64,000 bases of DNA from the NCBI RefSeq assembly GCF_003226255.1, contig NZ_QJST01000007.1, forward strand, positions 62,001-126,000, in the 5' to 3' direction. The notes under the pieces are model-generated. The model had not been told where the DNA came from. It searched no databases and saw only the letters and a program-made list of their open reading frames with translations. Origin of the DNA: Idiomarina fontislapidosi (lineage in GTDB: Bacteria; Pseudomonadota; Gammaproteobacteria; Enterobacterales; Alteromonadaceae). This document shows, piece by piece, positions 18,375-21,971 of this stretch. Made by a program: the position numbers and the translations under genes. The stretch's first letter is position 1. Each line of letters starts with the position of its first letter.

Positions 18375-18451
18375 TGGCTCCCCAGGTTGGATTCGAACCA
18401 ACGACACATGGATTAACAGTCCACCGCTCTAACCAACTGAGCTACTGGGGA
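18375..18451 (-). tRNA. tRNA-Asn (GTT), copy 1
   Basis: A 77-base cloverleaf on the minus strand: acceptor TCCCCAG pairing with CTGGGGA, anticodon loop CTGTTAA (GTT), T arm GTTGG-TTCGAAT-CCAAC, and encoded CCA. It is the promoter-distal member of an identical pair. Confidence 0.97.
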
Positions 18452-18482
18452 ACAATAAAACTATTGCAGAGTTAAAACGCGT

Positions 18483-18559
18483 TGGCTCCCCAGGTTGGAT
18501 TCGAACCAACGACACATGGATTAACAGTCCACCGCTCTAACCAACTGAGCTACTGGGGA
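18483..18559 (-). tRNA. tRNA-Asn (GTT), copy 2
   Basis: Identical to the copy at 18375-18451, with encoded CCA. The two are 31 bases apart and read from the promoter at 18580-18608. Confidence 0.97.
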
Positions 18560-18579: not shown

Positions 18580-18608
18580 ATATTAAAGACCTATGCCGCG
18601 CCTGTCAA
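18580..18608 (-). promoter_or_regulatory. promoter of the tRNA-Asn pair
   Basis: On the minus strand TTGACA (18603-18608) and TAATAT (18580-18585) are spaced by 17 bases. The downstream discriminator is GC-rich (CGACGCCG), typical of stringently controlled stable-RNA promoters. Confidence 0.85.
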
Positions 18609-19231
18609 CTAGAGATACAGTATTTTTGTTGTTTTTTAGTTTGACTGATTAAATCTTGTTCGAGTGTTTATTTTGTAGCCTAACACTGAAAACAACGGGC
18701 TAATGCCTCTATAAAGAAATGTCAAGTGACTGTCACAAATTAGCCTATAACGAAAGTAATGTTTTGTTAGTTGCTGAGGATATCCACATATCGCTGAAAT
18801 CCACATCAGCCAATGCCTACAGGATCTTATCCACGGATTCTGTGGATAACCCTGTGCTTAAGTGTGTGAAATAGTACGTTTAGTGCGGTTTGTAGGCAAA
18901 ATTAACGATTGTTCAGAAAATAGCTTTTCCAAAAAAATGTATTTAAAAACAATTGGTTATTTATTTATAATAAAAACATAAAAGTATTGCTTTAACACCC
19001 CAGTAAGATTGCCCGAAGAATCAGCAACTTGTGTATTTCTTATTTAATTTGGGTGTTTTTTAAACGCTCTTGGCAAGGGTTTTGCGGTTGCTGAAGCGAA
19101 TAAACGACGCATGAGTTGTATAACTTAACTGAGCAACAGTGATGGCTAAGCGTACTGTATTGTAATAAAAATGTCTCATTGTGTTGGCGGCTTTACTACT
19201 CAGGTTGGCCCTTTACAGAGCGAGCAAAGTT
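18609..19231. other. gene-free region with a cluster of DnaA boxes
   Basis: This is the core of the only gene-free stretch over 300 bases in the window (18560-19286, including the tRNA promoter and a terminator). It holds one perfect DnaA box, TTATCCACA, at 18841-18849 on the minus strand, and TTATCCACG at 18827-18835 facing it, giving an inverted TTATCCAC/GTGGATAA pair. ATATCCACA (18780-18788) and AAATCCACA (18797-18805) are upstream, and weaker minus-strand matches lie at 18853-18861 and 18863-18871. An A/T-rich tract follows at about 18900-18990. I see no supported ORF or clear small RNA. A DARS- or datA-like role in replication control is possible. Confidence 0.6.
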
Positions 19232-19236
19232 AAAAA

Positions 19237-19266
19237 AAAGCCCCGTTAGCGAGCTAACGGGGCTTT
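19237..19266 (-). terminator. intrinsic terminator of the aspartate aminotransferase gene
   Basis: A 14-bp stem AAAGCCCCGTTAGC paired with GCTAACGGGGCTTT, loop of two bases, followed on the minus strand by a run of T. Confidence 0.9.
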
Positions 19267-20612: not shown

Positions 20613-21971
20613 ATGGCTACAACCGACGCATCTCGGAGTCTTATTAACGCGCCGGTTGGAAAAACGCTGTGGGAAATGACATGGCCCGTTATTTTTGGCG
20701 TGGCAACGCTGATAAGCTTTAATGTTGTTGATACCTTCTTTATTAGTTTGCTTGGCACTGACCCTCTTGCCGCAGTCAGCTTTACCTTCCCCATCACCTT
20801 TACGGTCGTGAGTCTCACCATTGGCTTAGGGATTGGCACGTCAGCTGTGATTGCACGAAAATACGGTCGTGACAAACCAGAAGAAGCCCAGTTTGATGGC
20901 TTTGCTGCGCTCTCCGTTTCCGCTTTATTAGTGTTGATGCTGTCAGCCATTGGCTATATTTTCATGGACAGTATCTTTACCCTTTTGCAAGCGCAGCAAC
21001 GTTTACTACCGTTGATCCGTGAATACATGACGCTCTGGTTTGCAGGCAGTGTCATGCTGGTTACACCCATGGTCGGCAATGCCGTACTCAGGGCGTCGGG
21101 CGATACCCGAACGCCGTCATTAATTATGGCATCGGGTGGATTAGCAAACGCCATTTTTGATCCCATTTTGATTTTTGGTTGGGGCCCGATTCCTGCTATG
21201 GGCATCGAGGGCGCGGCGCTGGCAAGTGTCATCTCATGGTTTAGTGGCGTTATATTAGTGTTCTGGTTATTGAGTCGTAAACAGCTCATACGTGTGCGTA
21301 TTGAAACAACGCGCGGCTTATTTCGTGAATGGCTCGATGCCGCGCGCGCGATTCTAAAAATTGGCTTGCCGGCAGCCGGGGCCAATATCCTCACGCCACT
21401 TGCGATGTCAGTAATGACGGCGATCATCGCATCCTACGGTGCTGCTGCTGTAGCCGCGTTTGGCGTTGGTACTCGACTCGAGTCGCTTGCGAGTATCATT
21501 ATTTTAGCACTATCAATGTCGCTGCCGCCGCTGATTAGCCAAAACTTTGGTGCCAACCGCGTCGATCGGGTACGAGAGGCGTATGGCAAAGCATTAAAAG
21601 CGGTGTTTGCGATTCAACTGGTTATATACGCGGCTATGGCGATTACCGCACCGTGGATAGCGATGGCGTTTGCCAAAGAGCAAGAAGTGGCACGAATCGT
21701 TGAACTGTTTATTTACATTATGCCGATTGGCTATGGCTTTCAAGGTTGGATCATTCTCTCGAACTCGAGCTTCAATGCTATCCATAAGCCGATGCGTGCG
21801 CTTGGCTTGAGTGTCATCCGCTTGTTTGTTTTTTTCGTACCTCTGTCCTACTTAGGGAGTCTACTCGCCGATTTGCACGGTCTATTTATCGGCGGTGTGG
21901 TGGCGAATATCATTACAGCGGCTATCGCCTATCTATGGTTTACGCGTGAGCTGAGGAGGGTTGGTGAGTAA
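20613..21971 (+). CDS. MATE family efflux transporter
   Basis: MATE proteins export cationic drugs or metabolites using sodium or proton gradients. The 452-residue protein has about 12 hydrophobic helices in two homologous halves, with family features such as WPVIFG near the start, [15 protein letters not shown] and the second-half GLPAAGAN and [10 protein letters not shown]-like segment ([10 protein letters not shown]). ATG 20613 has a strong AAGAGGAGG before it; an upstream in-frame ATG at 20571 does not. It overlaps the uvrB start by 8 bases. Substrate unknown. Confidence 0.92.

Follow-up and report, generated by a model that had tools for sequence, protein, structure and literature searches.

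A DnaA-box cluster between tRNA-Asn and aminotransferase genes

The window, by which we mean the whole 64-kb stretch of DNA analysed here, contains a spacer that runs from two tRNA-Asn genes to the 3' end (19287, minus strand) of an aspartate-aminotransferase-like gene, and within this spacer lies a cluster of DnaA boxes adjoined by an A/T-rich tract (Table 1). An earlier note on this DNA had listed six DnaA-box sites and placed the cluster beside tRNA-Asn, 3.1 kb from uvrB. All six sites were found where the note had them, the neighbouring tRNA-Asn gene proved to be a pair, and the start of uvrB lies near 21967, some 3.1 kb off, a MATE gene and the aminotransferase gene, the latter on the opposite strand, separating it from the element. 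Two Fis consensus matches are present upstream of the core, at 18647 and 18666, and none was found in the window downstream of the core, the interval from core to distal box included. Because a terminator-like hairpin stands on one side, the tRNA promoter-like site points outward on the other, and the genes on both sides are read leftward, there should be little transcription across the element. Dam methylation of the GATC that touches box I could affect that box.

Table 1. Features of the element and its immediate neighbours (window coordinates; offsets are counted from the start of box I)
Feature	Position	Strand	Remark
Two tRNA-Asn genes	18375..18559	-	neighbours
Promoter-like site of the tRNA-Asn genes	18580..18608	-	neighbour; points away from the element
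Upstream DnaA box, ATATCCACA	18780..18788	+	starts 47 bp ahead of box I
DnaA-box site, AAATCCACA	18797	+	
GATC	18823..18826		abuts box I; kept in 19/19 Idiomarina genomes
DnaA box I (core), TTATCCACG	18827..18835	+	
DnaA box II (core), TTATCCACA	18841..18849	-	opposite to box I; gap 5 bp
DnaA box III (core), TTAAGCACA	18853..18861	-	1 mismatch; gap to box II 3 bp
Weak DnaA-box match	18863	-	
IHF-like site, AAACAATTGGTTA	18947..18959	+	+120; 1 mismatch to WATCARNNNNTTR
Perfect IHF consensus match, AATCAGCAACTTG	19019..19031	+	+192
Distal DnaA-box-like sequence, AAATACACA	19030..19038	-	+203; 2 mismatches
Intrinsic-terminator-like hairpin after the aminotransferase gene	19237..19266	-	neighbour; outside the element

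The number of DnaA boxes in the window is only mildly enriched: 22 sequences are within one mismatch of TTATCCACA, against a shuffle mean of 13.6, and at least 22 were obtained in 5 of 100 shuffles. The arrangement of the three core boxes, on the other hand, is not due to chance. The ordered pattern of box I (+), 5 bp, box II (-), 3 bp and box III (-), with at most one mismatch per box, occurs once in the 64 kb and was absent from 30 dinucleotide shuffles. When the whole genome (2.86 Mb in 45 contigs) was searched for the core pattern with up to three mismatches, only the window site, in both orientations, and one other locus were recovered. The earlier note had allowed that such clusters might be common by chance; for the ordered core these counts dispose of that concern.

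Nineteen Idiomarina genomes, including that of the window, were searched for the element. All 19 have the three-box core free of insertions and deletions, although the spacer diverges in places. A box at -47, upstream of the core, is likewise found in 19/19, reading TTATCCACA in 15 genomes and ATATCCACA in four, the window among them. The conservation in relatives that the earlier note had called for therefore applies to the core and to the box at 18780, and does not extend to the sites at 18797 and 18863, which are not kept genus-wide. tRNA-Asn genes lie beside the core in every genome and the aminotransferase gene in 18/19; one genome (L011 1902-2287) has four tandem tRNA-Asn genes at the locus instead of two. 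In 15-bp bins, column identity reaches 0.95-0.98 over the stretch that begins at box I and runs into box III (0 to +29), falls to its lowest values of 0.51-0.58 at +150 to +179, and rises again to 0.77-0.88 at +180 to +224. Near the end of the spacer, TTGTAATAAAAATGTC (window 19160-19175) is well conserved in most of the 19 aligned genomes.

Probable identity of the element with DARS1

The window core, E. coli DARS1 and E. coli DARS2 share the same orientation, with box I opposite to boxes II and III, and the same 5-bp and 3-bp spacing; equal spacing and a reversed box I are described, in passages of PMC5742627, as a common feature of both E. coli DARS cores. A sequence model built solely from the 19 Idiomarina cores recognised E. 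coli DARS1 at 25.8 bits (E 5e-7, 77 kb searched). In the DARS2 spacer the model scored 11.0 bits at the core and 12.6 bits at a second core-like place, it matched E. coli datA partially with 11.6 bits, and at E. coli oriC there was no match. Since the DARS2 scores are no better than that of the partial datA match, the model supports DARS1 and gives no clear support for DARS2.

The model was then applied to 295 genomes of the order, 186 of which gave a match at E 0.001. From the matches, ranked by score, 78 non-redundant loci were picked manually for reading, and they are not a random sample. uvrB lies downstream in the same orientation at 40 of them and the window's MATE gene at five, the remainder being arsC-dapE loci (8), mutH loci (4) and loci elsewhere (21). 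Because the model also matches cores at places other than the known loci (21/78), core geometry alone is no proof of DARS function. Among 11 uvrB loci with 20 kb of context, rsx genes are found on the other side in seven, as in the window, and bioD and bioC in one, as in E. coli. As the uvrB, MATE and rsx neighbours recur at the loci of relatives, the window element sits at the locus of DARS1, with the aminotransferase and MATE genes lying between it and uvrB.

The chromosomal position also agrees. In all four complete Idiomarina genomes used, the element is at 0.641-0.652 of the half chromosome from dnaA, and E. coli DARS1 is at 0.659 from oriC, distances being fractions of half the chromosome length rather than of a measured replichore. 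DnaA boxes beside an A/T-rich tract, together with an IHF consensus, could also mark a chromosomal origin in an unusual place, a reading that is exceedingly improbable here: dnaA is about a third of the chromosome away, and a related pattern of sites (described below) occurs at two to four places in some genomes of the class, unlike an origin. The GC skew of one complete Idiomarina chromosome, sampled in 20 stretches of which one was unreadable, changes from minus to plus at dnaA; it is plus in 5/5 stretches from dnaA to 0.57 Mb and minus in 13/14 further readable ones, and the element falls among the minus stretches. The change from plus to minus falls at 0.6-0.7 Mb, before half way, in samples too coarse to place the terminus. 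Identity with oriC was rejected, the element being distant from dnaA and showing no skew switch.

The DnaA protein of the window's own genome is 73% identical to that of E. coli, and 84/94 residues of domain IV are identical. It retains R227, R281, R285, L290 and R334 and the domain IV residues checked. The same genome encodes three HU/IHF-type proteins and a Fis-like frame of 103 amino acids. The cluster is, with high probability, the Idiomarina orthologue of the DnaA-reactivating sequence DARS1, its activity being predicted from sequence. The earlier note's DARS-like reading is thus favoured by features observed directly: a core geometry common to DARS1 and DARS2, linkage to uvrB, a similar chromosomal position, conservation of the core throughout the genus, and the conserved DnaA residues.

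An IHF site and a distal DnaA box at fixed distances from the core

For IHF sites and distal boxes we counted 45 hand-picked uvrB- or MATE-linked loci of the order, from 11 families. Between -300 and +310 these contain 26 perfect IHF consensus matches. Of these, 19 are on the same strand, at +118 to +122 relative to box I; each belongs to a different locus, and 7/11 families are represented. Shuffles of the same loci gave a perfect match at that place in 0.04 loci on average (maximum 2). Within one mismatch, the IHF site at +118 to +122 is found at 34/45 loci in 10/11 families. The spread is uneven, with 0/10 perfect sites and 2/10 within one mismatch in one family (f6), and 0/4 and 2/4, respectively, at the non-Idiomarina loci of the window's own family (f1). 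A minus-strand DnaA box within one mismatch at +203 to +206 is present at 24/45 loci (shuffle mean 0.5, maximum 4). Twenty-nine control loci, consisting of the eight arsC-dapE and 21 other loci without the four mutH loci, gave no perfect IHF site, two within one mismatch, and one distal box. No Fis-site peak stood out in the 45 linked loci (20 matches in all), and the upstream box at -46/-47 on the same strand recurs in only eight of them.

In E. coli, DnaA represses uvrBp3, which overlaps DARS1, through these boxes, as reported in parts of PMC6015884. The window boxes could accordingly serve transcription control of uvrB, with DnaA (and IHF) acting on its promoter, and the element does lie upstream of uvrB at 40/78 order-level loci. 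We regard this as very unlikely. The IHF site is fixed to the core and not to uvrB: across the 32 uvrB loci that have an IHF site, the core-to-IHF distance has a standard deviation of 0.96 bp, whereas for the IHF-to-uvrB distance it is 319 bp, or 75 bp when the single MATE locus is excluded. Moreover, the window core is intact despite the opposite-strand aminotransferase gene and the MATE gene before uvrB, and the aminotransferase gene holds the same place in 18/19 Idiomarina genomes, the genes farther out having been read in the window only. This two-gene separation argues for selection on the DnaA site rather than on control of uvrB.

Many of the 45 loci share a genus, and both position windows were fixed after examples had been seen, so a class-wide search is the fairer test. 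The Idiomarina-core model matches 237/369 genomes of the class. At 29 class loci found with it, a perfect IHF site is present at +119 to +121 in seven (shuffle mean 0.035) and one within a single mismatch at +116 to +124 in 18 (shuffle mean 0.54), and there are 17 minus-strand box placements at +201 to +204. In the flanks of these loci, which extend about 1.5 kb or less, a uvrB match was seen in one only, and that one was partial.

A tripartite pattern was composed of box II, the IHF site and the initial four bases of the distal box. It is present in 99/369 genomes of the class, compared with 0/369 for a reversed control pattern, and some genomes carry it at two to four places; the 270/369 genomes without a match include that of the window. 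At 30 tripartite loci that were read, box III, which is not part of the pattern, is found within two mismatches in 30/30 and within one in 24/30, box I within one mismatch in 21, and 23 have the distal box complete and without a mismatch. The nine that lack a good box I may represent a different kind of site. uvrB lies in the flank of one of the 30. In a phylum sample of 200 genomes, the tripartite pattern was found in 17/51 inside the class and 2/149 outside it. The core pattern was also observed in metagenome-assembled genomes of Magnetococcales, Alphaproteobacteria and an uncultured proteobacterium (L074, L075 and L077).

Any cluster of high-affinity DnaA boxes titrates DnaA, and this generality is what favours the view that the element is a passive titration cluster without nucleotide exchange. 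A titration cluster would have no need of fixed orientation, 5/3 spacing or a fixed IHF site, yet these recur in many families, and we consider such a role unlikely.

Comparison with E. coli DARS1, DARS2 and datA

E. coli DARS1 resembles the window element in its three boxes, their orientation and 5/3 spacing, in having uvrB downstream in the same orientation, and in relative chromosomal position. The two differ in that DARS1, in the bioD-uvrB spacer, has no gene before uvrB whereas the window has two, and in the upstream box at -47, which was seen in the window but not at DARS1. The IHF-like 13-mer of DARS1 at +121, TTTTAACTGGTTA, has two mismatches against one for the window site at +120, and the perfect IHF consensus at +192 belongs to the window alone. 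One-mismatch DnaA boxes are present at DARS1 at +203 and +223. DARS1 has been described as 101 bp long (in passages of PMC5742627), so any such fragment that includes the whole core ends before +121. The report, in the portion of PMC4585315 consulted, that E. coli DARS1 needs no protein factor may not have covered the part at +121.

E. coli DARS2, in the rppH-mutH spacer, shares with the window the core geometry, downstream IHF sites and a DnaA box about 200 bp downstream. Its core was placed by features named in parts of PMC4245941 and PMC8682772 rather than from a figure, and the core accepted has two IHF sites 3 bp apart and a full-consensus box V. Its IHF sites are at +93 (-) and +109 (+), in contrast to the one-mismatch site at +120 and the perfect site at +192 of the window, and its box V, at +211, is on the other strand than the window's distal box. 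DARS2 has a Fis consensus at +145; the Fis sites FBS2-3 of the DARS2 subtype have no counterpart in the window, which lacks a downstream Fis consensus. According to sections of PMC4245941, the IHF sites at DARS2 are kept in relatives of E. coli.

The earlier note had also entertained a datA-like element, which would promote hydrolysis of DnaA-bound ATP. E. coli datA and the window element both have DnaA boxes, IHF sites and tRNA neighbours, and adjacent tRNA genes, several boxes and IHF-like sites would suit this reading. No box I was found in E. coli datA, however, and a scan from -120 to +330 gave a single IHF match with at most one mismatch, at -55, on the opposite side to those of the window. 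The tRNA genes are read towards datA and away from the window element, and the window element is far from dnaA, whereas datA lies near oriC (as stated in passages of PMC5742627). The datA-like half of the earlier proposal, highly improbable on these grounds, was rejected for the differing arrangement of boxes and IHF sites and for the distance from dnaA.

The Idiomarina variant and a possible longer DARS module

One Idiomarina genome has a partly unreadable spacer, and downstream counts therefore refer to 18 genomes. The IHF site at +120 is perfect in three of these, has one mismatch in ten, the window included, and two mismatches in five. At +191 to +193, by comparison, an IHF consensus is perfect in 15/18, again with the window included, and has one mismatch in 3/18. 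The consensus at +192 abuts a distal box-like sequence, TGTGTATTT, at +203 (two mismatches). Either the IHF site has moved to +192 in Idiomarina, or the block is conserved for the sake of DnaA and its resemblance to an IHF site is a coincidence.

The relatives point to a longer, probably IHF-assisted DARS module. We propose, tentatively and with slightly less than even confidence, that DARS in Gammaproteobacteria is a module of about 215 bp, composed of the core, an IHF site at +120 and a distal box at +200 to +206, which occurs at varied loci and often in two or more copies to a genome. On this view E. coli DARS1, the standard example of IHF independence, would be a degraded member. Idiomarina would carry a variant: its functional IHF site would have shifted to +192, next to the distal box, and the element would have parted from uvrB.

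At the window element, ADP-DnaA would bind boxes I and II head to head, with box III helping; contact between the two AAA+ domains would lead to release of ADP, and apo-DnaA would depart and then take up ATP. To judge from the distances, an IHF bend at +120, at +192 or at both could fold the DNA so that DnaA bound at the distal box (+203) meets the core, and the loop so made might time or strengthen the reaction. The head-to-head step and the IHF requirement would carry over from E. coli, where boxes I and II hold two ADP-DnaA molecules head to head and so free ADP (in the passages of PMC8682772 consulted), and where IHF is essential at DARS2 and its position matters (in those of PMC4245941). 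The window copy itself is presumably active and bound by IHF.

DARS-like sequences in other proteobacteria have already been reported (in parts of PMC10380432 and PMC4585315), and the window copy is therefore a new member of this group. The apparent novelty is outside the core: an IHF site at a fixed place, and the distal box. In a literature search, with most subscription journals outside its scope and some sources seen in part, no IHF site was found reported at DARS1 of any species, nor was a fixed IHF site with a distal box at uvrB-linked or other DARS-like cores. DARS sites contribute to the timing of replication initiation in bacterial cells, and knowledge of them comes mainly from two E. 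coli loci. Judged by the relatives, such sites may be longer than the E. coli one and may occur more widely. Should the longer module be correct, control by IHF would be general, and the E. coli DARS1 fragment, which does without IHF, would be exceptional. Idiomarina, with its element apart from uvrB, offers a natural experiment in which replication control is separable from uvrB regulation.

Other core-like sequences

The E. coli rppH-mutH spacer contains two core-like inverted pairs in the same orientation (L032 2136-2171 and 2452-2487). The second core-like sequence was considered as the DARS2 core and rejected, the core that fits the published features being 316 bp upstream. Two core-like inverted pairs, 316-355 bp apart, are present at each of five mutH loci (L032, L194, L195, L196 and L226), and DARS2 may be a double-core element.

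The arsC-dapE type recurs in 8/78 order-level loci, none of which has a perfect IHF site at +120. The window's own genome has another core-like pair, its members 5 bp apart, upstream of arsC-dapE (G000:C2:289132-289161; L034 1501-1535). Within the genus, arsC-dapE neighbours were seen at 16/18 places, and 8/12 aligned sequences read ATATCCACA, 5 bp, TGTGGATAC. This core-like locus may be a second DARS.
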